In this document: piece after piece, positions 3,397 through 55,327 of the stretch | Layout of the letters: each line of letters opens with the position of its first letter | Position numbering within the stretch: the first letter of the stretch is position 1 | Source: an uncultured SAR86 cluster bacterium | GTDB lineage: Bacteria; Pseudomonadota; Gammaproteobacteria; Magnimaribacterales; Magnimaribacteraceae | Assembly (NCBI GenBank): GCA_902630715.1 | Contig: CACOVO010000007.1 | Location: 1 to 59,376, forward strand | DNA length: 59,376 nt | Direction of reading: 5' to 3' | Notes under the pieces: model-generated | Databases searched by the model: none | Seen by the model: the letters and a program-made list of their open reading frames with translations, nothing else | Told to the model about the DNA's origin: nothing | Program-made: the position numbers and the translations under genes

Positions 3397-4485
3397 ATGA
3401 TAGAGAGTATTTTAATTAAATTGGGAGATGTTTCTTCTCGATATGATGAAATAGAATCCCTACTCAGCAAGCCAGATATAACTTCCAATCAAGAAGAATA
3501 TATAAGGTTATCCAAAGAATACGCTGATTTATCTCCTTTGATAAATACTTTTAATAGTTATAAAAAAGCTGATGGGGATATTGAAGAGGCTAAACTTCTA
3601 ATCAAAGATTCAGATCCTGAAATAAGACAGATGGCAGAATTAGAGCTTGAAGATCTTAAAGTCAAGATTGATGAGCTTGAGACAGAATTAAAAAGACTGC
3701 TGCTTCCTAAAGATCCAGATGATTCAAAAGATGTATTTCTTGAGATCAGAGCTGGCACAGGCGGAGATGAGGCAGCTTTATTTTCTGGTGACCTCTTCAG
3801 AATGTATTCCAGGCTTTCTGAAAGAAATAATTGGAAAATGGAGATCGTGAGTGTGAGAGAAGGTGATCATGGAGGATTTAAAGAGCTTGTAACTAGAATT
3901 GAGGGCTCAAACGTTTATAAACAATTAAAATTCGAAGCTGGCGTCCATAGAGTTCAAAGAGTTCCGACCACTGAGTCACAAGGCAGAGTTCATACTTCCG
4001 CTTGTTCAGTGGCTGTTTTAGCTGAACAAGACGATCTTGCCGAAGTGAATATAGATAAGAATGATCTAAGAGTAGATACCTTTAGAGCTTCCGGAGCAGG
4101 AGGACAGCACGTAAATAAAACTGATTCGGCCGTTAGATTAACTCATATCCCTACGGGAATAGTGGTTGAGTGTCAGGACGGTCGATCACAACATAAAAAT
4201 AAAGAAAAGGCTTTGTCTTTGCTCCAATCAAAACTGCAGAATGCTGAAAAAGAGAAAGCAGAGTCTGAGCAAGCTGAGAATAGAAGAGTTATGGTTGGGT
4301 CCGGAGATAGATCAGAGAAAATTAGGACTTATAATTTTCCTCAGAACAGAATTACTGACCATCGTATTGAATTTTCTGTACATAACCTTCCGGCTTTCTT
4401 AGATGGTGACATGGAGGTAATGATCACTGCTTTGCTCGAAGAAAATCAAGCAAGAGCATTAGCAAATCTTGAATCCTCAAGCTGA
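3397..4485 (+). CDS. prfA: Peptide chain release factor 1
   Basis: RF1 recognises UAA and UAG stop codons and triggers hydrolysis of the finished peptide on the ribosome. The 362-residue protein has the normal family length. Stop-codon recognition uses the PxT tripeptide, here PTT at 190-192 inside RVPTTESQGRVHTSA. The peptidyl-transferase GGQ is at 235-237 in SGAGGQHVN; its Gln is the target of PrmC, encoded immediately downstream. It starts 6 bases from the divergent lolB start, so its promoter must lie in lolB coding sequence or be minimal. It overlaps prmC by one base (TGATG). Confidence 0.97.
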   Translation: MIESILIKLGDVSSRYDEIESLLSKPDITSNQEEYIRLSKEYADLSPLINTFNSYKKADGDIEEAKLLIKDSDPEIRQMAELELEDLKVKIDELETELKRLLLPKDPDDSKDVFLEIRAGTGGDEAALFSGDLFRMYSRLSERNNWKMEIVSVREGDHGGFKELVTRIEGSNVYKQLKFEAGVHRVQRVPTTESQGRVHTSACSVAVLAEQDDLAEVNIDKNDLRVDTFRASGAGGQHVNKTDSAVRLTHIPTGIVVECQDGRSQHKNKEKALSLLQSKLQNAEKEKAESEQAENRRVMVGSGDRSEKIRTYNFPQNRITDHRIEFSVHNLPAFLDGDMEVMITALLEENQARALANLESSS

Positions 4486-5318
4486 TGGATCAATACTCTG
4501 CGTTAAACCAAATAAAAATTTTAAAAAAATCATGCAAAGTTTGCTCTCAACTTGATATCGAGCTTTTAGTTTTGCACATTCTCAAAATTGATAGGAATAT
4601 CTTATTCAGAGACAACCCATTACTGACCGAGGAAAATTATAACAAAATCGTAAAACTCATAGACAGAAGAGAAATGGGTGAACCTATTGCTTATTTGACG
4701 AACAATATTGGTTTTTGGAATCTAAGCCTTTATGTAGATGACAGAGTTTTAATACCCCGACCCGAAACAGAAACATTGATAAAAGAGGTTTTATGCTTGT
4801 TCGATTCTCGCGAGAGATGGGTTTTGGATCTCGGAACTGGTTCAGGCGCAATCGGCCTAACTTTGGCAAAAGAAAGACCAAATTGGAATGTAATTTGTTC
4901 GGATGTAAGTTTAGATGCCCTTGAAGTTGCGTCAAAAAATATGAAGCAAAATTCTTTGCATGTAACATTTATTAATTCAGACTGGCTAAGTTCTTTTAGG
5001 AATAGGCATTTCGACATTATCATTTCAAATCCGCCTTATATCAGCCCTACTGATTCAAGAATTTTATCCGATGGTATAAAATTTGAGCCTTTAAAGGCTT
5101 TGGTTTCTGAATTAGATGGATTAAAAGATTTGGAAAACATTATAGAAGCCAGCTCACAAATCCTTGCCGACGATGGTTATTTATTCGTAGAACATGGATA
5201 TGACCAATCTGATAGAGTCGTTTCCTTTTTTAACAAATTTAACTTCTCTGACGTGAGACAGTATAAAGATCTAAATGACGATGATAGAGTTTGCTCTGGA
5301 AAACTAAAAAGATGCTAA
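4485..5318 (+). CDS. prmC: Release factor glutamine N5-methyltransferase
   Basis: PrmC (HemK) methylates the Gln of the GGQ motif in RF1 and RF2 using S-adenosylmethionine, which improves termination. It has 277 residues, as in E. coli. The SAM-binding loop DLGTGSGAIG lies at 115-124 and the Gln-binding NPPY at 182-185, in SNPPYISP. The N-terminal helical substrate-recognition domain takes up about the first 75 residues. It is translationally coupled to prfA through a one-base overlap, and the next gene starts inside its last codons. Confidence 0.95.
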   Translation: MDQYSALNQIKILKKSCKVCSQLDIELLVLHILKIDRNILFRDNPLLTEENYNKIVKLIDRREMGEPIAYLTNNIGFWNLSLYVDDRVLIPRPETETLIKEVLCLFDSRERWVLDLGTGSGAIGLTLAKERPNWNVICSDVSLDALEVASKNMKQNSLHVTFINSDWLSSFRNRHFDIIISNPPYISPTDSRILSDGIKFEPLKALVSELDGLKDLENIIEASSQILADDGYLFVEHGYDQSDRVVSFFNKFNFSDVRQYKDLNDDDRVCSGKLKRC

Positions 5319-6424
5319 AAGGTTATATAGAGGGATATTACGGTCGCTTATTCTCTAAAGATGAGAGAGAAAAAGTTGTTAAACATATGAGCAGGCTCGG
5401 TATGGATTTTTACTTATACGGCCCAAAGGAAGATTTATACCATAGAATAGAATGGGACAAGGCTTACCCAGTTAAAGAACAGAAAATTCTGAGAGATTTA
5501 ACTATCATCTGTAAAAAAAATAAAATTAGACCAATTTTTGCCATTTCTCCTGGATTGAAATCTTCGAATGTTTCAATCAGTGATAAAAAGAATCTTATTC
5601 TTAAGATAAAACAGGCTCAAAAACTAGGATTTAAAGAATTTGCAATTTTTTTTGATGATATAAACCATGAAAGAAATAGGACTCTTGCAGAGTCACATCT
5701 AGAGATGATAGAGATTGTGTCTTCAATAGATAAGGTTGAATACGAAGATTTATTCATCTGTCCGACAGTTTATTGCACAAGTTTCGCACAAGGAGATTTA
5801 GAAAATAATACTTACTTAAGGGTTCTCGCCAGTGAAATAGATCCTAGGGTGTCTATATTGTGGACAGGGGATGAGGTTGTAAGTGAAACAATACCTCAAA
5901 AGGGACTTAAGGATATCCGAGGCCTTTTTTCTAATCCTTTGATTATTTGGGATAACTTTTATGCAAATGATTATTGTCCGTCCAGATTCTATATCGGTCC
6001 TTATAAAGGGCGAAAATCTATATATAAATTTGCTTCAGGTGTAGGCATCAATCCTACTGGTTTACCCATTACTGACACGATTTGCCTTTCAAGGTTTATG
6101 TCGGATTTAACAGATAGACAAATCTTGGACGAATATAAAATTCCAAAAGAATTTTCAAAAATTTTACCTTATTTTACAAATCCATTCAGGGATCTGCCGT
6201 CTCTTAATTTGAGCAAAATCGACAAACTCATCCAAACTCAATATAAATTATGCATAGAATGGAAAGGCGATTTACAACTGGAATGGGCTCCTTTTTTATG
6301 GAAATTCTATCTGGACCTGACTTTGTTAAAAAAAATTAAAATCGGAGATAGTAAATTTAATCTTGAAGAGTGGTTGAAGCGAAGATATTCTGATCCACTC
6401 AAAGAAACAATTCTTAGAAATTAG
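5312..6424 (+). CDS. GH84 beta-N-acetylglucosaminidase, O-GlcNAcase-like, cytoplasmic
   Basis: The 370-residue product matches the catalytic domain of glycoside hydrolase family 84, which removes N-acetylglucosamine by substrate-assisted catalysis. Seen in order: YIEGYYGR (5-12), YLYGPKEDLYHR (34-45), ISPGL (78-82), the catalytic pair in FFDDI (Asp115 and Asp116), CPTVYC (150-155), ILWTG (182-186), IIWDN (211-215), ANDY (218-221) and GPYKGR (229-234). Several of these blocks resemble human OGA closely. There is no signal peptide and no acetyltransferase-like domain, so it should act in the cytosol; the last 100 residues are helical-looking and unassigned. ATG 5312 is preferred over an upstream TTG (5291) because the family motif begins a few residues later. 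It overlaps prmC by 7 bases. The substrate is unknown. Confidence 0.85.
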   Translation: MLKGYIEGYYGRLFSKDEREKVVKHMSRLGMDFYLYGPKEDLYHRIEWDKAYPVKEQKILRDLTIICKKNKIRPIFAISPGLKSSNVSISDKKNLILKIKQAQKLGFKEFAIFFDDINHERNRTLAESHLEMIEIVSSIDKVEYEDLFICPTVYCTSFAQGDLENNTYLRVLASEIDPRVSILWTGDEVVSETIPQKGLKDIRGLFSNPLIIWDNFYANDYCPSRFYIGPYKGRKSIYKFASGVGINPTGLPITDTICLSRFMSDLTDRQILDEYKIPKEFSKILPYFTNPFRDLPSLNLSKIDKLIQTQYKLCIEWKGDLQLEWAPFLWKFYLDLTLLKKIKIGDSKFNLEEWLKRRYSDPLKETILRN

Positions 6425-6432
6425 GAGAGAGA

Positions 6433-8055
6433 ATGTTAGGAAATATGATGAGTGGTCAGCTATTAATATCTGGCCTTATTGAGCATGCTGAAAAGTACCA
6501 TAGTGATGCGGAAATAGTTTCAAGGACGGTCGAAGGGCCCATACATAAATATACTTATGCCGATGCTGCTAGGAGATCGAGACAATTAGCGAATGCTCTT
6601 GAAAGGCTAGGCCTAAAACATGGAGACACTGTCGGCACTCTTGCGTGGAATACTTTTAGACATTTTGAATTATATTTTGGTGTATCAGGCATAGGATGTG
6701 TAGTGAATACCGTTAATCCAAGACTTTTTCCTGAGCAATTAACTTACATTATCAACCACGCTGAAAATAAGTATTTATTTATTGATTTATCCTTTGTTGA
6801 ATTAGTTGAATCGCTTGAGAATGAACTTAAAAGTGTGAAAGGATATGTGATACTTACAGATAAACAGAATATGCCTCAAACCAAGTTGAATAATGCCATG
6901 TGTTATGAGGATCTTATAGCCGAAGAGCCTGAAGAATTTGACTGGCCTGAGTTTGATGAAAATACCGCTTCAAGTCTTTGCTATACATCAGGAACAACAG
7001 GAAATCCTAAGGGAGTCTTATATTCTCACAGATCTACTATTCTACATGCTTGGATAGTGAGCTCAGGTAACGTTGCAAAAGTTTCTAGCTCTACTTGCAT
7101 TTTACCGGTCGTACCTATGTTTCACGTAAATGCTTGGGGTATACCATATGCTGGAGCTATGTTTGGCGCTAAGTTGGTATTTCCTGGACCTGCTCTAGAT
7201 GGCGCTTCTGTTTTTGAGCTTATTGACACAGAGAAACCAGATCTTTTGATGGGAGTGCCAACGGTATGGCTTGGCCTATTGCAACATCTTAATGAAACAA
7301 ACCAAACTTTAGATTGTGTAGATACAGCTTTAGTTGGTGGATCGGCTGCTCCTAGAGCAATGATTCAAGAATTTGAAGAAAAACATGACGTATTCCTAAT
7401 GCATGGGTGGGGTATGACCGAAATGAGCCCTCTGGGTACTGCAACAAGCAGAACAAAAGACATGGAGGGAATGGATATCGAAGCAAGGTATGACTTACAA
7501 CAAAAACAAGGCAAAGCCTTTTTTGGTGTAGATATGACTATAGCAGACGATGATGGTAATGAACTTCCACACGATGGTATTGCTTTTGGCCGATTGCTAG
7601 TTAAGGGCCCAACTATTGTTGAGCGTTACTATAAAGCCGAGGAGAGCGCTATGGATGAAAATGGATGGTTTGATACTGGTGATGTGGCAAAAATTCATCC
7701 AGAGGGTTATATGGAGATCGTTGATAGAAGCAAAGATGTTATAAAGTCTGGAGGAGAATGGATAAGTTCAATAGATCTAGAGAATGCTGCTGTGGGTCAT
7801 CCTGGAATAGCTGAGGCTTGTGTCATAGGAGTCCTTCATGCGAAGTGGGATGAGAGGCCTTTATTACTTGTTGTAAAAGCTCCTGAACAGGAACCTACTA
7901 AAGAAGATATAAATTCTTTTCTAGAAGATAAAGTGGCTAAGTGGTGGTTACCCGATGATATAGTGTTTGTTGAGCAACTTCCTCATACTGCAACAGGAAA
8001 GCTTTTAAAAACTGGATTGAGAGAAGATTTTAAGAATCACTTACTGGATAAATAG
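6433..8055 (+). CDS. Acyl-CoA ligase, AMP-forming (AlkK/DmdB-type)
   Basis: An ANL-superfamily ligase of 540 residues that would activate a carboxylic acid to its CoA thioester via an acyl-adenylate. The phosphate loop YTSGTTGNPKG is at 184-194, the adenylate-binding HGWGMTE and the WFDTGDVA hinge follow, and the C-terminal ATGK carries the adenylation Lys at 523. The opening (MLGNMMSGQLLISGLI) and overall course match the group containing medium-chain ligase AlkK and methylmercaptopropionate-CoA ligase DmdB, so the substrate may be a medium-chain fatty acid or methylmercaptopropionate; sequence alone does not decide. A strong AGGAG precedes the ATG. It forms an operon with the MaoC gene 9 bases downstream and two regulator-like genes. 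Confidence 0.9.
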   Translation: MLGNMMSGQLLISGLIEHAEKYHSDAEIVSRTVEGPIHKYTYADAARRSRQLANALERLGLKHGDTVGTLAWNTFRHFELYFGVSGIGCVVNTVNPRLFPEQLTYIINHAENKYLFIDLSFVELVESLENELKSVKGYVILTDKQNMPQTKLNNAMCYEDLIAEEPEEFDWPEFDENTASSLCYTSGTTGNPKGVLYSHRSTILHAWIVSSGNVAKVSSSTCILPVVPMFHVNAWGIPYAGAMFGAKLVFPGPALDGASVFELIDTEKPDLLMGVPTVWLGLLQHLNETNQTLDCVDTALVGGSAAPRAMIQEFEEKHDVFLMHGWGMTEMSPLGTATSRTKDMEGMDIEARYDLQQKQGKAFFGVDMTIADDDGNELPHDGIAFGRLLVKGPTIVERYYKAEESAMDENGWFDTGDVAKIHPEGYMEIVDRSKDVIKSGGEWISSIDLENAAVGHPGIAEACVIGVLHAKWDERPLLLVVKAPEQEPTKEDINSFLEDKVAKWWLPDDIVFVEQLPHTATGKLLKTGLREDFKNHLLDK

Positions 8056-8064
8056 GAGAAAATT

Positions 8065-8520
8065 ATGATTGGATTAGTCCCAGCAGAGAAATTAGTAGAA
8101 TATGTCGGCCAAGACATAGGTTCATCTGATTGGTTTGAAGTTGATCAGGATAGAATTGACATGTTTGCAGATGCAACTTTGGATCATCAGTTTATTCATG
8201 TAGATACAGAAAAGGCTACACCTTTATTTGGCTCTACAATAGCACATGGATTTCTTTCTCTTTCTTTGGTACCTCATTTAACGTCCCAAGCAGTACTAGC
8301 TCCAGAAAACCTAAAAATGGTGTTTAACTATGGACTAGATAAAGTGAGATTCATCAATCCTGTAAATGTTGGAGCAAAAGTTAGGACACATAGTAAGTGC
8401 GTTTCAGTTGATGACAAAGGAGACGGGCGTTACTTAATGAAGACCGAAGTTACCATGGAAATTGAAGGAGTTGATAAGCCAGCTTATGTAGCTGAAACAT
8501 TATCTATGTTTGTGACCTAA
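8065..8520 (+). CDS. MaoC-family (R)-specific enoyl-CoA hydratase
   Basis: A 151-residue single hot-dog domain of the MaoC/NodN type. These enzymes hydrate trans-2-enoyl-CoA to (R)-3-hydroxyacyl-CoA. The hydratase-2 motif is intact: ATLDHQFIHVD (37-47) holds the catalytic pair Asp40 and His45, followed by IAHGFLSLSL (59-68). A GGAG site precedes the ATG. It lies directly after the acyl-CoA ligase, so the two probably handle the same acyl-CoA in a short catabolic or lipid-modifying route. No dehydrogenase or thiolase accompanies them in this window. Confidence 0.88.
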   Translation: MIGLVPAEKLVEYVGQDIGSSDWFEVDQDRIDMFADATLDHQFIHVDTEKATPLFGSTIAHGFLSLSLVPHLTSQAVLAPENLKMVFNYGLDKVRFINPVNVGAKVRTHSKCVSVDDKGDGRYLMKTEVTMEIEGVDKPAYVAETLSMFVT

Positions 8521-8524
8521 AGTA

Positions 8525-9109
8525 ATGAACATAGCTTCTAACAATCTTAAAGACAAGGTAGTTAATAAAGCTATAAGTTCTCTCAGGAAAAATAAGAGAA
8601 TAGAACAAGTCAGTATTCCAGCAATAGCCGCTGAGTTAGACGTAAGCATTGAAGAAATAAGCTCTTTCTATACAACTACTGAGGATATATTCCTTGAAGC
8701 CCAAAAGAAGGATTGGGAATCCTTACACCGATTCTGGGATAGACATATAAAAAAATCAAAGACACCTGGGGACTTCAAAAACTCTTTTGAAATATTCTTT
8801 GAAAAGTTTGTGGATAGTTTAAGTAAAGACGCCGACTTACGACTAGAGTTATCTTGCTACTTGCCTAAATGTATAAAATATCGAGACAAAAATAGAAAAA
8901 GAGTAAAGCAGAAGTTCAAAAAACTTATAAATAAAGGTTGGCCTGGAAAAGATGAAAAAGTTTTAGAAAGGCAATCAGAACTTGTAACGATACTTTTTTA
9001 CGGATTTATTGACCATATAGTTCATATACCCAAAAATGAAAGAACAAAGATACTAAGAGATTTTAGAAATATGCTTAATCTCCACCTTCAAGACAGAAAA
9101 TTTTTTTAG
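8525..9109 (+). CDS. TetR-like helix-turn-helix protein, first tandem copy
   Basis: No named family is certain. The 194-residue protein has the outline of a TetR regulator: a short N-terminal bundle with a helix-turn-helix-like segment (SIPAIAAELDVSIEEISSFY, about 30-49) followed by an all-helical ligand or dimer domain. It is a paralogue of the next gene. Both share YLPKCI, KGWPGK or RGWPGK, VLERQ and a C-terminal INLHLQDR or LNLHLQDR ending in FF, at matching positions and with identical length. It begins 4 bases after the MaoC gene, so it likely responds to an acyl-CoA ligand made by that operon (inference). No strong ribosome binding site is visible, suggesting translational coupling. Confidence 0.65.
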   Translation: MNIASNNLKDKVVNKAISSLRKNKRIEQVSIPAIAAELDVSIEEISSFYTTTEDIFLEAQKKDWESLHRFWDRHIKKSKTPGDFKNSFEIFFEKFVDSLSKDADLRLELSCYLPKCIKYRDKNRKRVKQKFKKLINKGWPGKDEKVLERQSELVTILFYGFIDHIVHIPKNERTKILRDFRNMLNLHLQDRKFF

Positions 9110-9110
9110 T

Positions 9111-9695
9111 ATGAAAGTTGATGTCAAAAAGAAAGTAAGAATCATCCATAAGGCAATGGACTCTATTCGTAAATCTGAGAAAACACTTCACACCATATCC
9201 TTTTACAGAATAGCAGATGAATTAAATATGCCTTTTGGAGAACTAACTGAATTCTTTTTGAATATTGAGGATATTTTTCTTAATGAACAAAAAAGAGTAA
9301 ATCAAAAGTTAGAAATATTTATAGAGGAGGGATTAGATGCGGCCAAGACAGCCAATGATTACAAAGAACTCTTAGAGAATTTAACCACCGAATTCATTAA
9401 TCATCTTCCTGATCATGCTGATTTAGTCCTATCAGCCGCGTTCTATCTACCTAAATGTATCGAGGAACGGCAAAGAGCAAAAAAATACTACAGAACAGTT
9501 TTCAGAAAAATTATAAAAAGAGGATGGCCTGGCAAAATTGATACGGTACTCGAGAGGCAAACAGATCTATTATTATTATCTGCATATGGTTTATACGAAT
9601 ATTGTGCTAAGTCCGGGAAGAGAGAAAGAAAAGCGATACAAAAAGACTTTGTAAATATGATTAACTTGCATCTACAAGACAGATTATTTTTCTAA
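9111..9695 (+). CDS. TetR-like helix-turn-helix protein, second tandem copy
   Basis: Also 194 residues and co-linear with the preceding gene, with the same blocks YLPKCI, RGWPGK, VLERQ and NLHLQDR followed by LFF. The HTH-like segment ([20 protein letters not shown], about 28-47) has diverged from its neighbour's, while the C-terminal half is better conserved. This is the pattern expected if the two proteins heterodimerise or read different sites. The start is one base after the upstream stop. The end overlaps the convergent gatB by 12 bases. A DNA-binding role is inferred from fold outline only. Confidence 0.65.
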
Positions 9696-19044: not shown

Positions 19045-20328
19045 TCAATTCAAGCGTCTCATTTTTGATGAAGGGATATTTAGGTCTAGTCTATATTTTG
19101 CTACCGTCCTTCTAGACAAATTAACCTTAAAATGAATTTTTAAAGCTTCCCTAAGACGCTCATCACTAAAAGGATCAGATTTTTCTTCATTTTTTACTAA
19201 TTCCTCAATGAGAAACTTGAGATCCTTGCTAGTGACATCAGCACCATCTTCATACCTATTTACTCTTTTTTCTATTAGATCCTTTAGAAGTAATACTTTT
19301 CCAGGTAGTTGAAGATATTTATTTCTAACAATCCTTGAAACTGTAGATTGACTAATATTTAGTTTACTAGCTACTTCTTTATTTGAAATTGCTCTTTTTT
19401 CAGAAATATCCAATAAATATCCACTTTGTGCTTCAATCAAATATTCAGATACTAACAGGAGGGTTTGTTGCCTTCTTTCTAAGCCCTTAATAAAAGATTT
19501 TGAATCCTCATTATTTTCACTCTCAGTTGTATCAATTTTGTTTTTTAGGGCATCAATCAATTCTTTTGACATAAAATCATCGTTAATTGACACGTGCCAA
19601 TTTTTATTTTCATAAATAGCTAATAAATCTGGTCTGATATAGTTTTGAATAATATCTCCAAATTTTGCAGCTGGATTAAGAGAGAGCTTACTAAGATTTA
19701 TTCTTTCTTTTTCTGGAACTTGCTCAATGTTTATTTTCTCTTCTTTGATAGCTTGTAAATTTTTTTTTAGATTTTCTTTTTCAAAGACGGTTATATCTAG
19801 ATTTTCAATTTGTATTTTCAAAGACTCATTTATATCTCTATATGCACAACCCACGGGTTCAAAGTTCTGGATCATATGTAAGGTTTCTTCAATTCTTTTA
19901 TCGGTTACAAGAATATCAAAATCTTCATGTATCATATCTTTTAAATCTTCGTAATCTATTTGAGGATCTAATCTCCCATTACTTTCAACGGAATCTATGA
20001 GATATTCACCTATTAGACTTTGAATGTCGTCCGATACTGAAATGTAAAGCTGCTCAAGGAGATCTTTTTGAAGATTAGATTCAGTCTCTTTGGGAAATGT
20101 CGTTACAAAGTCATTACCTTGATAAATAAAGTTTCTGTATTTGTCGGTTAAGTATTCATCTCTAAAGTAAGCAACTTTTTTATCTTCTTCATCAAAGTAT
20201 TCATCAATCAAATTATTGAGTTTTGTGCTAATTTCAAATCCACTTAATGAAAGTAATTTGATTTGATTTCCAAGAGAATTAGTAACTCTAAGAGAAAACT
20301 TTTGCTTCTGCTGCAAGCTTTGCTTCAT
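19045..20328 (-). CDS. rpoN: RNA polymerase sigma-54 factor
   Basis: RpoN directs polymerase to -24/-12 promoters that need ATP-driven activators. The 427-residue protein is shorter than E. coli's 477. Region I is recognisable but diverged (MKQSLQQKQKFSLRV, then IKLLSLSGFEI). The core-binding domain follows, then a helix-turn-helix (ISNKEVASKLNISQSTVSRI), and the RpoN box at 405-414 reads SRRTVAKYRL, two changes from ARRTVAKYRE. It shares one base with the lptB stop (TAATG), the usual lptB-rpoN coupling. hpf, ptsN and rapZ, which normally follow, are absent. No enhancer-binding activator is seen in the window. Confidence 0.9.
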   Translation of the reverse strand: MKQSLQQKQKFSLRVTNSLGNQIKLLSLSGFEISTKLNNLIDEYFDEEDKKVAYFRDEYLTDKYRNFIYQGNDFVTTFPKETESNLQKDLLEQLYISVSDDIQSLIGEYLIDSVESNGRLDPQIDYEDLKDMIHEDFDILVTDKRIEETLHMIQNFEPVGCAYRDINESLKIQIENLDITVFEKENLKKNLQAIKEEKINIEQVPEKERINLSKLSLNPAAKFGDIIQNYIRPDLLAIYENKNWHVSINDDFMSKELIDALKNKIDTTESENNEDSKSFIKGLERRQQTLLLVSEYLIEAQSGYLLDISEKRAISNKEVASKLNISQSTVSRIVRNKYLQLPGKVLLLKDLIEKRVNRYEDGADVTSKDLKFLIEELVKNEEKSDPFSDERLREALKIHFKVNLSRRTVAKYRLDLNIPSSKMRRLN

Positions 20329-40088: not shown

Positions 40089-41738
40089 ATGGCTAGCAAG
40101 ATTCTCTACTCTTCGGGAAGAATTATTTCTATCCAATTAATATTGCTCTTTGGTTTCCTTGCCTTGATAGGAAGATTGATTTATCTACAAATATATCAAG
40201 ATATATTTTTAGATGATCAAGTCTTTAATAGATTGGATTCGCAGTATTCCTTATTAGCACCTAGAGGAAAAATACTTGATAGAAATGATCGAGTTTTGGC
40301 CATGGACGTCAAAGGTTACAGTGTAGGAATAGATCTCGCAAAATTCAATTACCACAAGGACTCTATTTTTTTTCTAGCAAAGATCTTAGATAAAGATCCT
40401 AATGATTTAATGAGTAGGCTAAGAAATAAGTCCTCGGGTTACAAAGAAATAAAAAGAAATATCAACTACGCTACTAAAGAAGCACTTCAAGAGAAGAGGA
40501 TTAAGGGCGTCTATTTCAGAGAAAACTTAAGAAGGAGTTACCCGGAAAAAGATATTAGTTCTCATATTGTTGGATTAACAGATACAGACAGGAAAGGTAT
40601 CCAGGGAGTTGAACTTGTTTTTCATAATGAACTTCAAGGAGAAAAGGGTAGCTTCGTGGGCATCAAGGGATCTAAGAATACAAAACTCGAGGGAAATAGG
40701 ATCGAAGCAATTCCCGGAGAAGATATCAAGTTAACAGTTGACTTGAATATTCAATCTATTGCTTATCATGAGCTAAATAAACAAATAAAGGAAACCAATG
40801 CAGCGGCCGGATCAATAGTAGTTATCGAGCCAAAATCAGGAGATATACTAAGCTTAGTCAATTATCCTTCATTCGATCCCTCAGATAGAAGAAACCTTAA
40901 TGATATGGGTAATTTGAGAAACAGAGCTACTATCGATGTTTTTGAACCAGGCTCAGTTATGAAACCTCTTGCAATGTCAGCTATTATCGAATCAGGAAAA
41001 GTAGACATTTCAAAAAAGATAAATACTTCGCCTGGATGGATAGAGTTTGAAGGTTTCAAAACAAGCGATTTCAGAGATTATGGAATTTTGAATCCGTCAC
41101 AAATAATTTCTTTATCAAGTAATGTTGGCATGGTTAAGCTTTGTGAAAAGCAAGACACAAAACATTTAATTAACTATTATAAAAAATTTGGGATTGGAAA
41201 ATATCCAACTTCATTAATGATTCCAGCTAGAGAAGGCCATCTACCTCATGAATCACAATTCACTTTACGCGATAAAGTTAGTTCTTGTTACGGCTACGGA
41301 ATAACTTTATCTGCATTACAAATCGCACAGGCGTATTCAGTTTTCGCAAATGATGGAAATTTTATAGAGTTAAATTTGTTCAAGGATCAATATGTTGGGG
41401 AAATACACAAACATCGCGCCATTGACTCTGAAACCAATAGATTAATTGTAGATATGTTGGTTGAAACAGTAAATTCCTCAAATGGTACTGCTTCTAAAGC
41501 ACGTCTTAAGGATTTTGAGGTTGCAGGTAAAACAGGAACTGCGAAGGAAACTCTTGATGAAGTTAGTTCTTATACAAGCACCTTTGCAGGTTTTGTCCCA
41601 TCTGATAATCCTGAATATTTAGCTGTAATTGTTCTCAGTGGATTAACTGGAGAAGATTACTCTGGAGGGAGAGTTTCAGCCCCAGTATTCTCCAAAATAA
41701 TGAAGCAAATTTTTTTAATGAAGGATTTAGAAATCTGA
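40089..41738 (+). CDS. ftsI: Septal peptidoglycan transpeptidase FtsI (PBP3)
   Basis: FtsI crosslinks septal peptidoglycan together with FtsW. The 549-residue protein has a single N-terminal membrane helix (about 11-33), the pedestal domain with APRGKILDRNDRVLA (57-71) and the transpeptidase motifs SVMK (289-292, nucleophile Ser289), SSN (343-345) and KTG (481-483). AGAGGG lies just before the ATG. It follows ftsZ, not ftsL, and runs straight into murE with no gap. Confidence 0.96.
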   Translation: MASKILYSSGRIISIQLILLFGFLALIGRLIYLQIYQDIFLDDQVFNRLDSQYSLLAPRGKILDRNDRVLAMDVKGYSVGIDLAKFNYHKDSIFFLAKILDKDPNDLMSRLRNKSSGYKEIKRNINYATKEALQEKRIKGVYFRENLRRSYPEKDISSHIVGLTDTDRKGIQGVELVFHNELQGEKGSFVGIKGSKNTKLEGNRIEAIPGEDIKLTVDLNIQSIAYHELNKQIKETNAAAGSIVVIEPKSGDILSLVNYPSFDPSDRRNLNDMGNLRNRATIDVFEPGSVMKPLAMSAIIESGKVDISKKINTSPGWIEFEGFKTSDFRDYGILNPSQIISLSSNVGMVKLCEKQDTKHLINYYKKFGIGKYPTSLMIPAREGHLPHESQFTLRDKVSSCYGYGITLSALQIAQAYSVFANDGNFIELNLFKDQYVGEIHKHRAIDSETNRLIVDMLVETVNSSNGTASKARLKDFEVAGKTGTAKETLDEVSSYTSTFAGFVPSDNPEYLAVIVLSGLTGEDYSGGRVSAPVFSKIMKQIFLMKDLEI

Positions 41739-43175
41739 ATGAAGACCAGAGAATTCTTGAAGGAATCGATCCATCTCAAAAACTTTAGAGATATTGAGAT
41801 TAAGAGCTTACATTTAGACAGCAGAGAAGTTACTAAGGGAGGTTTATTTTTTGCTCTAAAAGGAAAAGAAAGTGACGGGAATAATTTTATTAAATCTGCT
41901 TTAGACCAAGGTGCGTCAATGGTGATTTCAGATACCAGTGATACAGGAATCGAAGATGTGATACATCAAAAGGAGTTAAAAAAAAATATAGGAATTTTTG
42001 CATCTCGATTCTATGGCAACCCAAGTTCGAGGTTGAAGACCATATGCGTCACAGGAACAAATGGAAAAACTACTTGCGTTGAGAGCTTTGCAGCTATGAG
42101 CAACTTATTGAACAGAAAATGTGCTTTCATGAGCACTATAAATTATTCCACTGATGGTATTAATCTTAAAACTTCTCAACTAACCACTCCTGACCCTATA
42201 AGAGTTCAAAAAAATCTAAAGAGCGCGCTTGATGATAATGCAATATATCTTTCTATGGAGGCATCATCTCATGGACTTGATCAAAATAGATTGAATGGAG
42301 TTGATATTGACTATGCAATTCTGACAAGTTTTTCTCATGATCACCTTGATTATCACCTAGATCTGGAAAATTATAAAAGTTCAAAAGAAAAATTATTTCT
42401 GGATTTAAATCCAAAACAAAATGTAATTTGTATAGACAGCTCTTTTGGGAAGGAACTGTACAGCAAAGTTAAAGAAATAAATCCTTACACTTATAGCGTC
42501 TCCATCAAACAAGAAGCGGATTTTCAAGCCTCCTTCGAGAATATAAAAGATGGGTTGAAGGTAACCTTATGTGGCTTAGATCATAAATTTAATTTTGATT
42601 TAACAACAGTCTCTAGATATCTTGCTTCTAATGTGATTTGTTCGATTGCTGTATTAATGCTGGAAAATTTTGACCCTGCTTCAATCAAGTCTCTAACAAG
42701 AAAGATCGATTTTCCTCTCGGCAGGCTTCAAAAAATCGAGAAAGGTAATATTTCAATTTACATTGACTATGCTCATACCCCTGAAGCCTTAAAAAATACT
42801 CTTAAAGAAATAAAAAGATTTCATAATAATGATTTATGGTGTCTTTTTGGTTGTGGAGGCGACAGAGACAAGGAAAAAAGACCTCTCATGGGTGGTGCAG
42901 CAGAAAAATATTCGGATAAAGTGATACTAACTAATGATAATCCTAGAACTGAAGACGAAAACCAAATAATCAAAGATATTCTTTCCGGTATAAATAATAA
43001 AGATAAAACAATAATACAATTTGATAGAAGACGGGCAATTGAAATTGCTTTTTCCGGATTACAAAATAAAAATGGCGGAATTTTATTAATAGCCGGCAAG
43101 GGTCATGAAACACATCAAGAAATTAATGGTCGTTTCTTTGAGTTTAGTGACATAGATATAGTCAAATCTTTGTAA
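41739..43175 (+). CDS. murE: UDP-MurNAc-tripeptide synthetase (meso-DAP adding)
   Basis: MurE adds the third amino acid to UDP-MurNAc-L-Ala-D-Glu. The 478-residue ligase shows the ATP loop TGTNGKTT (105-112), the SMEASSHGLDQ segment, SFSHDHLDYH and DNPR at 400-403. The Arg in DNPR marks meso-diaminopimelate specificity, so this cell should have ordinary gram-negative DAP-type peptidoglycan. It starts on the base after the ftsI stop. Confidence 0.97.
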   Translation: MKTREFLKESIHLKNFRDIEIKSLHLDSREVTKGGLFFALKGKESDGNNFIKSALDQGASMVISDTSDTGIEDVIHQKELKKNIGIFASRFYGNPSSRLKTICVTGTNGKTTCVESFAAMSNLLNRKCAFMSTINYSTDGINLKTSQLTTPDPIRVQKNLKSALDDNAIYLSMEASSHGLDQNRLNGVDIDYAILTSFSHDHLDYHLDLENYKSSKEKLFLDLNPKQNVICIDSSFGKELYSKVKEINPYTYSVSIKQEADFQASFENIKDGLKVTLCGLDHKFNFDLTTVSRYLASNVICSIAVLMLENFDPASIKSLTRKIDFPLGRLQKIEKGNISIYIDYAHTPEALKNTLKEIKRFHNNDLWCLFGCGGDRDKEKRPLMGGAAEKYSDKVILTNDNPRTEDENQIIKDILSGINNKDKTIIQFDRRRAIEIAFSGLQNKNGGILLIAGKGHETHQEINGRFFEFSDIDIVKSL

Positions 43176-43185
43176 ATCAGTAAAC

Positions 43186-44514
43186 ATGAACTTAATTGAC
43201 CTATCAGAAATTTCAAACGGAAAACTTTTCGGCGATTCGCTCGAAGTTAATAGTTTCAGTATAGATACCAGGACAATCCAATCAAATGATGTTTATATTG
43301 CTCTTAGAGGCGAAAACTTTGATGGACATGACTTTGTATTAGATGCAAAAGAAAAGGGAGCTTGCGCAGCTGTCCTCGAAAGACCCACTGAATTAAATAT
43401 CCCCCACCTAATTGTTCACGATACATATAAATTTTTAGAAAAAGTTGCGATACACAACCGAAGAAAATTTAATGGTAAATTAATTGGTATAACAGGAACA
43501 AACGGCAAAACTAGTACGAAGCAAATTGTTGCTAATCTTTTAAACAGAAAGGGACCATGTCATAAAACAATTGGCAACAAGAATAACCAGATAGGTGTCC
43601 CATTCACTTTACTGAATCTTCAACCAAAACATGATTTTTCAGTAGTTGAGATTGGTACGAGCGAGCCTGGGGAAATAGAGATTCTTAGAGAGATGGCGCA
43701 ACCTCATATGTCAGCTATAACTAATGTTTCAATGGGCCATCTTGAGGGATTGAAGGATACAGAGTCCATCGCGAAGGAGAAAGGGAATATACTCAATTTT
43801 AAGAATGATGAAGGTGTGGCCTTTCTGCCAAGAGATTCTGAATTCTATGAATACTGGTTGGAGAATACTAACGCCAGAGAAACATTTAGTTTCGGCTTTC
43901 ATTCTGAGTCAGATTTTAAAGTTTCAAATATCAAAATTGACATTGTGAAGAATAGTACTTGTTTTGATTTAAGCTACGAAAATAAGATAGGGAAATTTTC
44001 TATGAATGGTATCAGTCAATACAATTCACTAAATGCTGCTCTGTCTATTGCTGTAGCTCTAAAATGCGATGTCCCTATGACTGAAATTCGTCAATCTCTG
44101 TTGGAAATTGATTTACCAGAGAGAAGGTTAAACGTTTCTCCAGCGTTAAAAGGATCTATCCTAATTGATGATTCTTACAATTCGAATCCTGCATCGATGA
44201 AGAACGCTCTTGATTCGTTAGAAAATGCAGAGGGCCAAAAGATATGTGTTATGGGATCTATGAAAGAACTTGGATCAAAATCAAAGCAAATTCATAAGGA
44301 TGTATATAATTACGCCAAAAAAAAAGTAGATATGATCTTTTGTATGGGCGATGAGTGGTCAGGATGCAGTGAAGACAAAAATTTCAAAATTTATAAGAAT
44401 CATGAAGAGATATATAAACACTTAATAAATATATTAGATAAAAACACTATAATATTGGTCAAGGGATCACGATCTACCAAAATGGACAAATTAGCCGATA
44501 AACTAAAACCTTAA
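43186..44514 (+). CDS. murF: UDP-MurNAc-pentapeptide synthetase (D-Ala-D-Ala adding)
   Basis: MurF attaches D-Ala-D-Ala, produced by the ddl gene later in this cluster, to the UDP-MurNAc tripeptide. The 442 residues contain the ATP loop [15 protein letters not shown], the NKNNQIGVP segment typical of Mur[11 protein letters not shown] and [15 protein letters not shown]. It ends TAATG, sharing one base with mraY. Confidence 0.96.
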
Positions 44515-45596
44515 TGCTCTTACCTTTATTTGAATATCTATCTGAATTTTTTGGACCGTTTCGTGTCGTAGAATTCTTATCAACAAGAGCAATCTTGGCA
44601 ACATTAACATCACTCTTCTTTTCTTTGATATTAGGACCTAAATTTATCAACAAAATGAAGGATATTCAGGTTGGTCAAGTTGTAAGAGCTGAGGGTCCTG
44701 AAACTCACTTATCAAAACAAGGAACACCTACTATGGGTGGGACTTTAATTTTGAGCTCAATTTTTTTGAGCGTTATCTTATGGGGTGATCTGGAGAATAG
44801 GTATCTTTGGGTAGCCTTTTTAACTGCAATGTCTTTTGGAGTGTTAGGCTGGGTAGATGATCGATTGAAGATTAAACATAAGTCAAGCGATGGTTTATCA
44901 GCTTGGAGCAAAATATTTTGGCAATCATTGATAGCTATCATGGCTTGTTCTTTTCTTTATCTATCACAAGAAAATGTTGCCGAAACTAGCCTAATAGTCC
45001 CCTTTTTTAAGGAAATATCTATTCCCTTAGGTTTAGGTTTTATCCTTCTGTCTTATTTGGTAGTGATCGGAACCAGTAACGCAGTAAATTTGACTGATGG
45101 ATTGGATGGTCTAGCCATTTTGCCGTGTGTTATGGTTGCAGCTGGATTAGGGATTATTGGCTATTTAGCGGGTAATGCGATTTATTCTGATTTTTTAAAC
45201 ATTCCTTATTTGCCTGGAACAGGGGAGATGATTGTTTTTTGCGGAGCGCTTGTTGGATCTGGCATAGGCTTCTTGTGGTTTAATACTTATCCAGCTCAAG
45301 TCTTTATGGGTGATGTTGGTTCATTGTCTCTAGGTGCGGCTCTGGGAATTGTTACAGTTATCATACGGCATGAATATGTATTGTTGGTAATGGGTGGTTT
45401 ATTTGTCATAGAAGCATTATCAGTAATTGTTCAGGTTTCTTCATTCAAACTCACAGGAAAAAGGGTATTCAATATGGCGCCTTTGCATCATCATTATGAA
45501 CTTAAAGGATGGCCTGAACCCAGGGTTATTGTAAGATTTTGGATCATAACCTTTATGCTTGTTTTGCTTGGATTAGCTCTTTTGAGGCTCAGATAA
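44514..45596 (+). CDS. mraY: Phospho-MurNAc-pentapeptide transferase
   Basis: MraY transfers phospho-MurNAc-pentapeptide to undecaprenyl phosphate, making lipid I at the inner membrane. The 360-residue, ten-helix protein is the same length as E. coli's. [30 protein letters not shown] with its catalytic Asp pair, [18 protein letters not shown] and the [17 protein letters not shown] loop are all conserved. Confidence 0.97.
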
Positions 45597-45601
45597 ATTC
45601 C

Positions 45602-46912
45602 GTGCAAAAGAAAATACCATTGGTTGTCGGATTTGGTATAACAGGAAAATCCCTAATTAATCACCTTTCAAAGTCTCATAAAGAGTTATACCTCATTGAA
45701 GATTCGGCAGATAACTTTGATTTCGGTAAATCATTGAATGACAAACTAAATCTTATAGTTAACCCCGTTATTGATGAGAAACTTTTTAACAAGGTATCTG
45801 AAATTTATTCAAGCCCTGGTATACCCGAAGATCATATAGTTTTAAGCATGGCTAATGAAAACAAAATAAATGTTTTGTCTGACATAGAAATATTCTTGAA
45901 GAAAACTCAATGTGTAAAGATCTTAGTAACAGGCACCAATGGAAAAACATCAACGTGTTTAATTTTAAAAACTCTTCTTCAATCTCTTTTCCCTAATTTA
46001 AATATAGAAGCTTTGGGGAATATTGGCTTCCCTGTTCTTGACTACATGGATAAAAATCTGGATATCGCAATAATTGAAATTTCTAGCTTTCAATTAAAAC
46101 TCATAAAAGAAATTGAATATGATTTTGGCATTTTGCTAAATATCGCAGAGGATCACTTGGACCGACATGCAAATTTTGAGGAATATAAAGAATTGAAATA
46201 CTCTGTATTGAAAAATGCTGTTTACGGGGTTTCTTTTGAATCTAAAAATCCATTTAAGAATGATCATAGAAACTTCAAAGATAAACAGTTAAGTTCAGAT
46301 ATATTAGAAATGCCTTGCTTTAGGTATTGGCCATCACACGATTTAGAAAATTTGAAAGCCGCCTTAGAGGTCGTGAGCATATATTGTGAGAAATATTCTG
46401 ACTTTTCTTTCCTAGAAGTTGAATTGAAATCCTTTTTAGAAAAAGCATTTTCAGATTTTAATAGGCCATCTCATAGGTTCGAGCTATTGGAAAAGATTAA
46501 CGGAATCAATTTCATAAATGATTCAAAGGCGACTAATTTGAGTTCGATGTTAATGGCTATTGATGCCACATCAAGTATTTCAAAAGAGGGTAACATCTAT
46601 TTGGTATGTGGTGGAGATTTGAAAAACCAGAATCTGACGACGATCGATCTTGACCCATTAAGAAAAGTAAATAAGGCAATAATTTATGGAAAAGACAAGC
46701 ATAAAATGAGTCAATCATTTGCCAGTTATACAGATTCTTTGACGGCCGACGACCTAATACAAGCTACAAAGCTCGCTATAGAGCACTCGAGTTGCGAGGA
46801 TTATGTGTTACTTTCTCCAGCATGCTCAAGCTTAGATATGTTTAAAGACTATGCAGAGAGAGGAGACATTTTTAAAAATTATGTAAGAAACTTAAAAAGC
46901 AATGAATCTTAA
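45602..46912 (+). CDS. murD: UDP-MurNAc-L-Ala-D-Glu ligase
   Basis: MurD adds D-glutamate to UDP-MurNAc-L-alanine. From the GTG at 45602 the protein has 436 residues, near E. coli's 438, and opens directly into the nucleotide-binding strand IPLVVGFGITGKSLI. Longer in-frame starts lie inside mraY and would add residues with no family counterpart. The ATP loop [10 protein letters not shown], the NIAEDHLDRH segment, NDSKATNLSS and LLSPACSSLDMFKDYAERG are diagnostic. It overlaps ftsW by 11 bases. Confidence 0.95.
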   Translation: MQKKIPLVVGFGITGKSLINHLSKSHKELYLIEDSADNFDFGKSLNDKLNLIVNPVIDEKLFNKVSEIYSSPGIPEDHIVLSMANENKINVLSDIEIFLKKTQCVKILVTGTNGKTSTCLILKTLLQSLFPNLNIEALGNIGFPVLDYMDKNLDIAIIEISSFQLKLIKEIEYDFGILLNIAEDHLDRHANFEEYKELKYSVLKNAVYGVSFESKNPFKNDHRNFKDKQLSSDILEMPCFRYWPSHDLENLKAALEVVSIYCEKYSDFSFLEVELKSFLEKAFSDFNRPSHRFELLEKINGINFINDSKATNLSSMLMAIDATSSISKEGNIYLVCGGDLKNQNLTTIDLDPLRKVNKAIIYGKDKHKMSQSFASYTDSLTADDLIQATKLAIEHSSCEDYVLLSPACSSLDMFKDYAERGDIFKNYVRNLKSNES

Positions 46913-48068
46913 ACTTTTCGAAAATTTTGATTATTTAAAAATTGACTTCTTCTTATTGGCTTTATTTGCTTCATTAAGCCTTTTTGGCCTGATCATATTG
47001 GCTTCAGCCTCAGTTAATTTCTCAGATTCAATATACGGTAATCCATCAGCGATCTTTAACAGGCAATTAATTTATTATCTTTTAGGTTTAATGGGCTTAT
47101 TTATTTTTTTTGTATTACCTTTAACCTTTTGGACAACATATGATCGTTTATTTATAACGCTTGGCTTCTTTTTACTTCTTTTAGTTTTTATACCAGGAGT
47201 TGGACTTGAGGTTAACGGAGCAAACCGATGGATAAGGGTTGCAGGATTTGGATTGCAACCATCGGAAGTTATGAAATTTTTGAGCATCCTTTATGTAGCT
47301 TCATACTCTGTCAGGAGAATAAAAGAAATTCAGTCTCATTGGTTAGGGTTTTTCCGACCAGCATTGATTATAGTTAGTATTATCTCTGTAATTCTTATTC
47401 AGCCTGATCTAGGTTCATCGGCCGTAATATTTGCCTCCGTTCTTGGTGTTTTATATGTTGCTGGAGTGAAAATGAGACAGTTTTTTATAGTCGCAATGCT
47501 TGGTTTACTTGCGGTTGCATTAATGATTTTTTTTGTGCCTTGGAGGTGGGAAAGAATCATTTCTTTCATTGATCCATGGAGTGATCCTTGGGGAAGTGGT
47601 TATCAGCTTACTCTATCTCTTATGTCTATGGGGCGAGGAGATTGGTTTGGCGTGGGACTTGGTCAAGGTCTTATGAAGATGGGATATCTACCGGATGCGC
47701 ATACAGACTTTATATTTTCTGTGATTGTAGAAGAGTTAGGAATACTAGGAGGCTTTGCAATTATCTCTTTATTATTTGGCTTATCCTTTAGAATTTTTTT
47801 TATTGGAAGAGAGTCTCTTGTTAGAAAAAATTTTTTCGGGTTTTATTTTTCTTATGGAGTTGCTCTGCTTCTTGGTTTGCATACTTTTATCAATGTTGGA
47901 GTGGCATGTGGTCTCTTGCCCACTAAAGGTCTAACTTTACCGCTGATAAGTGCCGGCGGAACTAATCTGATTATCGTATGTCTTATGATCGGACTTATAC
48001 TAAGAATAGACTACGAAAATAAAATTTCTATGCCAGTTCCAATTATCAAAAGGACTGCGAAACTCTAA
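46902..48068 (+). CDS. ftsW: Septal peptidoglycan glycosyltransferase FtsW
   Basis: FtsW is the SEDS-family polymerase that works with FtsI at the septum. The 388-residue protein has about ten membrane helices. Key blocks are LEVNGANRWIRVAGFGLQPS (the catalytic-pocket loop), IQPDLGSSAVIF, the YQLTLSLMSMGRGDWFGVGLG segment (key residues in the GRGDWFGVGLG turn), LPDAHTDFIFSVIVEELG and the C-terminal GLTLPLISAGGTNLI. It shares one base with murG. Confidence 0.97.
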   Translation: MNLKLFENFDYLKIDFFLLALFASLSLFGLIILASASVNFSDSIYGNPSAIFNRQLIYYLLGLMGLFIFFVLPLTFWTTYDRLFITLGFFLLLLVFIPGVGLEVNGANRWIRVAGFGLQPSEVMKFLSILYVASYSVRRIKEIQSHWLGFFRPALIIVSIISVILIQPDLGSSAVIFASVLGVLYVAGVKMRQFFIVAMLGLLAVALMIFFVPWRWERIISFIDPWSDPWGSGYQLTLSLMSMGRGDWFGVGLGQGLMKMGYLPDAHTDFIFSVIVEELGILGGFAIISLLFGLSFRIFFIGRESLVRKNFFGFYFSYGVALLLGLHTFINVGVACGLLPTKGLTLPLISAGGTNLIIVCLMIGLILRIDYENKISMPVPIIKRTAKL

Positions 48069-49141
48069 TGAATATTTTGATCGTTGCAGGCGGAACCGGT
48101 GGTCATGTTTATCCTGCACTGAGCATAGCGAAAGAATTCAATCAAAAGGGTTACAAAATTTCATGGATAGGAAAAAAAGATAGTCTTGAGGAGAGTATTT
48201 GTATTGAAGAACAATTTTCATTTAATGCTCTAAAATCAAAAGGCTTTCAAGGTAAGAGCTTTTTAAAAAAAATTAACTCGCTTTATTTTTTTATTCTGAG
48301 TCTATTCGCAAGTTTTTTTATCATTCGCAAAATAAGGCCAGATTTCATAGTATCTACTGGGGGTTATACCTCCTTGGCCCCGAGTATTATCGGCTCTCTA
48401 TTTTGTCCATTATTTATCCATGAACAGAATAGTGTCGCTGGGTTAACGAACAAAATATTGCACAGATTCTCAAAATTAACTTTTGAAGCATTTCCTAATA
48501 CATTTAATACTCTCAAACCTAAGCTTAGGTTTGTCGGAAATCCTGTAAGAGAAGAAATTTTAGGAAATTTAAAAAACACAGATACGAACGAATCAATATT
48601 TAAAATTCTTGTCCTGGGTGGTAGTCAAGGATCGAAGCAAATCAATGATATTCAAAAAGAAATTTTAACTAATGAAAAAATTCCTCCTCATTGGTCATTT
48701 ATACATCAAGTAGGAAAGCTAGAATCTACTGAGCTTCGTTTAGCATATGAGTGTTCAGGGATAAAATTTGAAATCAAAGAATATATCGATGACATGGGAG
48801 AGGCATATAATAATTGCGATATTGTTATTTCTCGATCTGGTGCAATGACAATAAGCGAAATATGCGCTTCCGGAAGGCCGTCAATACTTTTACCTTTGCC
48901 TTGGTCATCAAATAATCATCAATATCATAATGCAAAGTTTCTAAAAGATAGAGGAGCTGCAGAGTTAACTGACCTTAGCGTTTCCAGTTATAAAGACCTT
49001 TTTGAGCTATTAATTGAGATCGAAAGAGATCATAATAAAAGATTAAAAATGGCTGATAATGCCACAGCGGTTTTTCCAAAAGGCACTTCAAAAAAAATCT
49101 TCAAATCAATAAATGAATCTCTCTCAATACAGACTCAATAA
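48068..49141 (+). CDS. murG: MurG glycosyltransferase (lipid II synthase)
   Basis: MurG adds GlcNAc to lipid I on the cytoplasmic face of the membrane. The 357-residue GT28 enzyme has GGTGGHVYPALSIA (8-21), STGGYTSLAPSI, HEQNSVAGLTNK, VLGGSQGSKQIN and the donor-site SRSGAMTISEICASGRPSIL. The order ftsW-murG-murC is standard. Its last 29 bases overlap the murC start. Confidence 0.96.
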   Translation: MNILIVAGGTGGHVYPALSIAKEFNQKGYKISWIGKKDSLEESICIEEQFSFNALKSKGFQGKSFLKKINSLYFFILSLFASFFIIRKIRPDFIVSTGGYTSLAPSIIGSLFCPLFIHEQNSVAGLTNKILHRFSKLTFEAFPNTFNTLKPKLRFVGNPVREEILGNLKNTDTNESIFKILVLGGSQGSKQINDIQKEILTNEKIPPHWSFIHQVGKLESTELRLAYECSGIKFEIKEYIDDMGEAYNNCDIVISRSGAMTISEICASGRPSILLPLPWSSNNHQYHNAKFLKDRGAAELTDLSVSSYKDLFELLIEIERDHNKRLKMADNATAVFPKGTSKKIFKSINESLSIQTQ

Positions 49142-54250: not shown

Positions 54251-55327
54251 ATGAAAGTTAAATATACTGAAGATACGCCGAGAAAAATCCGAGACTACGA
54301 AGAGTCTGAGCCTGAGTTGACTGCTGAAGAAGTAGAGGATATTGCAGAAATTTTTAGAACACCATTAACAGGTACTTATAATTGGGATTATTCTGTTCAA
54401 GATAATAGGATCGCAAAATTATATGAACTAGGAAAAAAACTCAATTGGAATGTCTCAATGGATATTGATTGGGATAGGCCTCTAGTTGAATCGGAAGACA
54501 TTCCTCAAATGTTTTGGGACGAATATCCGCCTTATAAAAAACTTAGTATTGAGCAGAAAAGAGAGTTTCTGAGACATAGAGGGGCAAGTCAATTTAGTCA
54601 ATTTCTTCATGGAGAACAGGGTGCACTCTTAGTAGCATCACAACTAGTCTCATGTGCTCCTACTTATCAGGCAAAACTTTACGCAGCTTCTCAGGCTTTC
54701 GATGAAGCCAGACATGTTGAAGCTTTTACCAAGTATATTCAGAAAAGATCAAAGCTTATGTATCCAGTTGGGTCAGGACTTAAAAGTCTTTTAGATAAGA
54801 TACTTACTGATGAGAGGTGGGATCTTAAACTTATTGGTATGCAAATAATTATCGAAGGTTTAGCCCTAGCGGCTTTTAATACAGCAAAAGCTGTAACACC
54901 TGATCCTGTTTTGAGAGATATCCTGCACTTGATTATTAGAGATGAGGCGAGACATGTAACATTTGGAGTAAATTATCTTGAAGACTTTATAGAAAATCTT
55001 ACTGAAGAAGAAAGAGAAGATAGGGCTATGTTCGCATATGAGGCTTGTGTCATAAGTAAGGAGAGACTCTTTCCAACTGATGTCTTCAGGAAGTTTGGTT
55101 GGGATGAAGACGAAGCAAGACAATTTTCAAATAAGGCAGGATTTGCAACTGAATTCCAACGACTTCTTTTTTCAAGAGTTGTGCCAAATCTTTCAAGAAT
55201 TGGTCTTCTAACTGATAAAGTCAGACCTCTTTACGACAAATTGGGTGTTTTAGAGTTTGAATCGCATTCTCCGGACGGTGATATTTCTTGGGCTGAGTTA
55301 GAAAAACCACTCGATCTTTCTGCTTAA
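54251..55327 (+). CDS. Ferritin-like diiron protein of unknown function
   Basis: The 358-residue protein is a soluble four-helix-bundle diiron protein. Six carboxylate/His ligands can be read: Glu122 (HGEQGALL), Glu152 and His155 (FDEARHVEAF), Glu202 (IIEGLALAAF) and Glu232 and His235 (RDEARHVTFG). Two DEARH repeats are the hallmark of ribonucleotide-reductase-R2, fatty-acid desaturase and AurF-like N-oxygenase families. No radical Tyr or transmembrane segment could be assigned, so oxygenase, desaturase or oxidase chemistry all remain open. It stands alone between dnaB and pyrG. Function unknown. Confidence 0.8.
   Translation: MKVKYTEDTPRKIRDYEESEPELTAEEVEDIAEIFRTPLTGTYNWDYSVQDNRIAKLYELGKKLNWNVSMDIDWDRPLVESEDIPQMFWDEYPPYKKLSIEQKREFLRHRGASQFSQFLHGEQGALLVASQLVSCAPTYQAKLYAASQAFDEARHVEAFTKYIQKRSKLMYPVGSGLKSLLDKILTDERWDLKLIGMQIIIEGLALAAFNTAKAVTPDPVLRDILHLIIRDEARHVTFGVNYLEDFIENLTEEEREDRAMFAYEACVISKERLFPTDVFRKFGWDEDEARQFSNKAGFATEFQRLLFSRVVPNLSRIGLLTDKVRPLYDKLGVLEFESHSPDGDISWAELEKPLDLSA

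Follow-up and report, generated by a model that had tools for sequence, protein, structure and literature searches.

An uncultured SAR86 bacterium encodes a signal-less GH84 protein that, judging from its sequence and from the genes that accompany it or are missing in other genomes, very probably acts as a cytosolic exo-beta-N-acetylglucosaminidase doing the job of NagZ in peptidoglycan recycling. The gene lies at positions 5312 to 6424 (+ strand) of the window, as the whole 59,376-nucleotide stretch analyzed here is called. This reading is built on the family of the protein, its conserved residues, the absence of a signal, the replacement of NagZ by GH84 among SAR86 genomes, and the clustering of related genes with recycling genes in SAR116.

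The GH84 protein and its kin

The gene is an intact open frame of 370 codons' worth of protein, beginning with the ATG at 5312 and closing with a stop that ends at 6424, and the motifs CPTVYC, ILWTG, IIWDN, ANDY, GPYKGR, and FFDDI are all found in its translation, as the sequence-only reading of this DNA had claimed. In a Pfam profile search, the protein matched the GH84 domain PF07555 with 214 bits against a cutoff of 25 (E 3.7e-63), far outside chance. This was the sole domain that Pfam detected in the 370 residues, the remainder being helical in the structural model, and no GH3 match to the protein appeared in Pfam or NCBIfam searches. The window's assembly (63.7% complete) yielded no other GH84 copy. 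The catalytic domain begins at the first residues, leaving no room for a signal peptide, and in 32 SAR86 representatives no more than 17 residues of open frame precede the domain, which supports the earlier proposal of a cytosolic enzyme without an export signal. In some relatives outside SAR86 the frame extends up to 186 residues upstream, and the short N terminus there hinges on the start codon chosen by our script.

Alignment places the catalytic Asp pair, D115-D116 (D174-D175 in human O-GlcNAcase, OGA), at codons 5654 to 5659 (+ strand). This pair, together with K39, Y154, W213, N215, D220, and N247, was invariant in all rows of a 45-row alignment of relatives. The pocket of human OGA is retained at 14 of the 15 positions checked, the exception being a T222-to-Ser change; residue roles and numbering are those of human OGA, anchored on D174-D175. 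An AlphaFold2 model of the protein (pLDDT 93.8, pTM 0.91) has the fold of a TIM barrel with a short helical bundle. In a Foldseek search with the model, human OGA (E 4.1e-25) and OgOGA from Oceanicola granulosus (E 3.0e-24) were about equal and best among the matches listed, and all 50 of these were titled GH84, OGA, or unspecific hydrolase, so the structural comparison proposed earlier bore out the likeness to the human enzyme. Sequence matches in the PDB were led by human OGA (158.5 to 154.8 bits), followed by 9qep (139.1; a Trichoplax protein according to the Foldseek listing), BtGH84 (127.5), OgOGA (126.4), NagJ (at most 122), and TtOGA from Thermobaculum terrenum (116.4). The statement that the protein is more like animal OGA than like known bacterial GH84 enzymes therefore holds for pairwise scores.

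Descent tells a different story. A 69-row GH84 tree, with a single animal sequence and without protists, OgOGA, or TtOGA, placed the window protein in a 61-row clade (support 100/99) made up of SAR86, SAR116 and other alphaproteobacteria, Fibrobacteres, Spirochaetes, and four other gammaproteobacteria; SAR86 did not form one group within it (17 and 15 rows). Human OGA fell outside this clade and paired (99/93) with a protein from a Deinococcus plasmid; it shares 49.8% identity with that protein and 34.7% with the window protein. Kinship with animal OGA in particular was therefore not supported. Three plasmid-borne multidomain GH84 proteins, assumed to represent the secreted enzymes, also fell outside the clade. 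Of the phylogenetic placement proposed earlier, separation from this assumed-secreted set thus stood, while grouping with animal OGA did not. A secreted GH84 was ruled out as a candidate by the short N termini and by the position of the multidomain set.

Compared with known enzymes, the window protein shares with human and animal OGA the TIM-barrel GH84 domain, the helical bundle, the pocket, and 35% identity over 245 residues, but has no C-terminal acetyltransferase-like domain and no OGT partner and belongs to a separate clade. OgOGA and TtOGA are, like it, bacterial single chains of a GH84 domain and a helical bundle, yet both score lower against it than human OGA does. TtOGA, reported to be intracellular in passages of PMC4683255, is accompanied by an OGT, whereas no OGT was found in the window's order. 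BtGH84 and other multidomain bacterial GH84 proteins share the catalytic domain but carry extra domains first, with the catalytic domain starting at residue 130 to 152, and it is their plasmid-borne relatives that lie outside the clade. The search for an OGT-like transferase suggested in the sequence-only reading yielded no homologue (PF13844) in any of the 203 SAR86-order genomes, the window's own included; as a control, the profile matched in 2 of 14 well-known genomes. An animal-like OGA with an OGT partner was rejected on this ground.

GH84 and NagZ in the SAR86 order

In the window, GH84 belongs to a string of genes on the + strand that starts with prfA (3397 to 4485; named by eye) and continues with prmC (4485 to 5318; PrmC_N and methyltransferase domains), which GH84 overlaps by 7 bases, as noted earlier. 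An AMP-binding acyl-CoA ligase (6433 to 8055; PF00501, E 8.3e-73) starts 8 bases beyond GH84, and its closest NCBIfam model is 3-(methylthio)propionyl-CoA ligase (803 against a cutoff of 822). A MaoC-like dehydratase follows (8065 to 8520; PF01575, E 2.4e-23). Next come two adjacent 194-aa genes (8525 to 9109 and 9111 to 9695) with no Pfam or NCBIfam match at E 0.001, relatives of which hold the same place in loci L048 and L115. No carbohydrate-use genes adjoin this prfA-prmC operon, in agreement with the housekeeping neighborhood described before, and SAR86 GH84 genes adjoin no recycling genes. Synteny supports prmC and the MaoC-like gene as conserved context: in 48 of 50 GH84 loci, which represent all four families of the order, GH84 adjoins prmC, the ligase gene, or a moeB-like gene of the string prfA-prmC-(moeB)-GH84-ligase-MaoC. 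Only L031 and L046, two loci of genus g8, have GH84 outside the prfA operon; in the tree their proteins group with family f3, so that they were probably acquired by horizontal transfer inside SAR86.

Far from being a lone oddity, GH84 was present in 101 of the 203 genomes assigned to the SAR86 order (Magnimaribacterales) when presence was called by profile searches of these mostly incomplete genomes. Genus and family labels were tool assigned, and GH84 loci at 68 to 70% identity are labelled SAR86. NagZ (NF003740) scored above its cutoff in 75 genomes, and 77 were counted after adding partial genes in G117 (186 bits) and G131 (101 bits). The two enzymes were never found together: 101 genomes had only GH84, 77 only NagZ, and 25 neither. 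Among the 40 genomes at least 90% complete, 26 had only GH84, 13 only NagZ, none both, and 1 neither (G138, near-identical to NagZ-bearing G136 in a tree of neighboring proteins). NagZ profiles also weakly matched larger GH3 proteins in many genomes on both sides, far below the cutoff, and these were not counted; the KHFPGHG...DS motif was found in all four SAR86 NagZ proteins looked at.

Alternation between the enzymes extends to single genera, with 2 GH84 versus 19 NagZ genomes in g15 and 2 versus 15 in g20. The Fisher value for the exclusion, 2.8e-34, ignores the relatedness of genomes; once relatedness is allowed for, the exclusion rests on five to six switches. A tree of four neighboring proteins (49 rows, quick method) needed six changes between GH84 and NagZ, and the independent pairs, five on well-supported branches or six on the best tree, were all opposite (sign test p 0.0625 for the five). 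In SAR86, GH84 and NagZ appear as alternatives that have been exchanged several times.

The locus itself gave the same picture. When it was read in 13 NagZ genomes, GH84 was present in none; in 8 the ligase gene directly abuts prmC or the moeB-like gene, and the remaining 5 genomes either have other genes in between or are read from a stretch that ends too soon. The NagZ gene sits away from the prfA-prmC locus in the four loci seen. A 361- to 365-aa gene behind prmC in L065 to L067 was considered as a hidden hexosaminidase and rejected, having no BLAST match to GH84 or NagZ and appearing dioxygenase-like by eye. Seven genomes with neither enzyme were checked using the window's prfA as the query for whether the locus is assembled. 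Four had no full prfA, and there the locus was probably not assembled; in G004, G069, and G138 the locus was assembled, GH84 was absent from it, and NagZ was not found. In G156, another genome with neither GH84 nor NagZ, a GH3 frame of 601 aa lies close to AnmK at the end of a contig (L075, 1 to 1806; 158-bit match). It could be a further replacement, a chimera, or a contaminant, and was not counted as NagZ.

AnmK acts on anhydroMurNAc, which must first be freed from GlcNAc. AnmK was found in 179 of the 203 genomes (among them 90 of the 101 GH84 genomes and 68 of the 77 NagZ genomes), so the GH84 genomes have the next enzyme without the usual one for removing GlcNAc. The AmpG family (TIGR00901) gave a match of any kind in 184 genomes, above the cutoff in 143, and strongly (E < 1e-45, a limit set in this analysis) in 168, among them 82 of the GH84 and 67 of the NagZ genomes. 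At 90% completeness or more, both AnmK and AmpG were present in 23 of 26 GH84 genomes and 13 of 13 NagZ genomes. The window's own partial assembly contains AnmK (C1:157604-158686) and only weak AmpG matches (1.9e-25). Most GH84 genomes have AnmK and AmpG as well, and on this ground an explanation of the exclusion as an artefact of incomplete assemblies was rejected. NagZ, the usual enzyme, removes GlcNAc in the cytosol by way of a covalent GH3 intermediate, according to passages of PMC3920638; it belongs to an unrelated fold family, the window protein lying outside GH3.

The order falls into four families, as in the published Magnimaribacterales (PMC11582366), and genus counts and the nagZ distribution suggest that they are the same four. 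Independently of this analysis, the relevant passages of that SAR86 comparison restrict nagZ to the Suzuki family and a single RedeBAC7D11 genus, and GH84 goes unmentioned beside it there.

Recycling clusters in SAR116 and other relatives

SAR116 alphaproteobacteria are among the closest relatives outside SAR86. GH84 was found in 85 of 136 genomes of the SAR116 order, three of them with partial or broken genes (G624, G627, and G713), and NagZ matched in 2 of the 136 at any score and in none above the cutoff. Neighbors were identified by BLAST against the genes of stretch L124 in 22 stretches around SAR116-order GH84 genes (15 alphaproteobacterial relative loci and 7 genomes picked from the 85). 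AnmK was present in all 22, MurQ and AmpG in 19 each, Amidase_2 in 14, and NlpC/P60 in 13. Profile searches, which confirmed cluster gene identities in the one stretch L124, identified an N-acetylmuramoyl-L-alanine amidase, NlpC/P60, MurQ, AnmK, PIG-L, GH84, YkuD, and AmpG. The order of genes in the SAR116 clusters varies while their content stays, which speaks for function. Most SAR116 stretches also have a gene for a PIG-L family deacetylase between those for AnmK and GH84 (L124, 5228 to 5917, and the like), and its product may act on released GlcNAc or on the disaccharide.

Similar arrangements occur beyond SAR116. The gammaproteobacterium G458 has AmpG, AnmK, and GH84 together, the latter two overlapping by 4 bases, and G553, from the same family, has the order AmpG-GH84-NlpC/P60. 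NagZ above the cutoff was found in none of 32 other genomes with relatives; long GH3 proteins of G595 and G598 gave NagZ-like matches below it (181.6 and 144 bits), which were left out of the count. Six GH84 genomes were taken from a 369-genome sample of the class, and two of them (G418 and G466) were the only GH84 genomes seen with NagZ; in the tree, their GH84 proteins fall in a different clade. Of the 32 genomes, the 17 from outside the alphaproteobacteria (mostly Fibrobacteres and Spirochaetes) showed no AnmK close to GH84, which weakens the recycling reading for them. When plasmids were searched with the SAR116 protein, only distant relatives turned up, with a best identity below 60% and none covering 80%.

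Proposed function and alternatives

In the proposed pathway, AmpG would import GlcNAc-1,6-anhydroMurNAc(-peptide) into the cytosol, the GH84 enzyme would clip GlcNAc from the imported muropeptide sugar, and AnmK would then phosphorylate the anhydroMurNAc. The window protein would thus resemble NagZ in being cytosolic, in its predicted reaction, and in filling the same genomic slot with AmpG and AnmK. Its chemistry would be of the O-GlcNAcase kind, substrate assisted, with D115 aiding the acetamido group and D116 serving as acid/base, unlike the covalent route of NagZ. We infer this substrate and mechanism, as well as a function of the SAR86 enzyme equal to that of the clustered SAR116 enzymes. 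Counting against the proposal are the place of SAR86 GH84 in the prfA-prmC operon away from recycling genes, the weak AmpG match in the window's own assembly, and the three genomes that have the locus but neither enzyme. As a guide to chemistry the analogy with OGA is right; as a guide to function it misleads.

A true protein O-GlcNAcase, removing O-GlcNAc from cytosolic proteins, might be expected from a pocket that keeps 14 of the 15 human OGA positions checked and from human OGA chains being the best sequence and fold matches. This is very unlikely, since PF13844 was found in none of the 203 genomes (though a non-GT41 transferase might exist), GH84 tracks the absence of NagZ in a way that protein O-GlcNAc does not predict, the SAR116 relatives lie within a cell wall recycling cluster, and the protein stands apart from animal OGA in the tree. 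Somewhat less remote, and still improbable, is a general cytosolic hexosaminidase that feeds on imported GlcNAc oligosaccharides such as chitobiose, in which case NagZ and GH84 would exclude each other because either suffices. GH84 enzymes accept simple aryl-GlcNAc substrates, which counts for such breadth. Passages of the SAR86 comparison (PMC11582366) also list nagZ among sugar-degrading enzymes. Against it, the AnmK, MurQ, amidase, and AmpG genes adjoining GH84 in SAR116 are muropeptide specific, and GH84 in the window has no carbohydrate-use genes beside it.

The PIG-L gene between AnmK and GH84 raises another alternative, in which the enzyme works in recycling on a bond or substrate other than that of NagZ. 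It might, for instance, act ahead of import, or on a modified sugar that the deacetylase also handles. This is very unlikely: PIG-L is missing from clusters L122, L138, L186, L187, and L188, which keep GH84, and replacement by NagZ in SAR86 implies the same reaction. Among the three candidate substrates named in the sequence-only reading, recycled wall sugars are thus favored by the NagZ exclusion and the SAR116 recycling cluster.

To our knowledge, muropeptide activity is known for no GH84 enzyme. A search of the open-access literature found no paper assigning GH84 to peptidoglycan recycling, and such a role is likely absent from print. The NagZ-like role would give a concrete function to a group of bacterial "O-GlcNAcases" whose annotation follows that of the human enzyme by analogy and, if true, would fill a missing cell wall recycling step in two of the commonest bacterial groups of the surface ocean. 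It would also mean that thiamet-G-type OGA inhibitors, unlike NagZ-selective ones, block recycling in these bacteria.

It is possible, though on balance doubtful, that the whole signal-less bacterial clade (SAR86, SAR116, some other proteobacteria, and perhaps Fibrobacteres and Spirochaetes) consists of muropeptide hexosaminidases, a chemically distinct second solution to the NagZ step, and that a signal-less cell wall GH84 was the source of eukaryotic O-GlcNAcase. Among the proteins compared here, the closest bacterial relative of animal OGA is the one that pairs with human OGA in the tree, from Deinococcus psychrotolerans plasmid NZ_CP034185.1 (L177, 2498 to 3745), which begins directly with the catalytic domain and is encoded beside a site-specific integrase gene.

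Elsewhere in the window, about 34 kb from GH84, peptidoglycan synthesis genes recognized by Pfam lie at 40089 to 50504 (a penicillin-binding transpeptidase, a Mur ligase, and MraY-like and MurG-like proteins). This streamlined marine genome also encodes a sigma-54 factor (19048 to 20328) and an AurF-like N-oxygenase (54251 to 55324).
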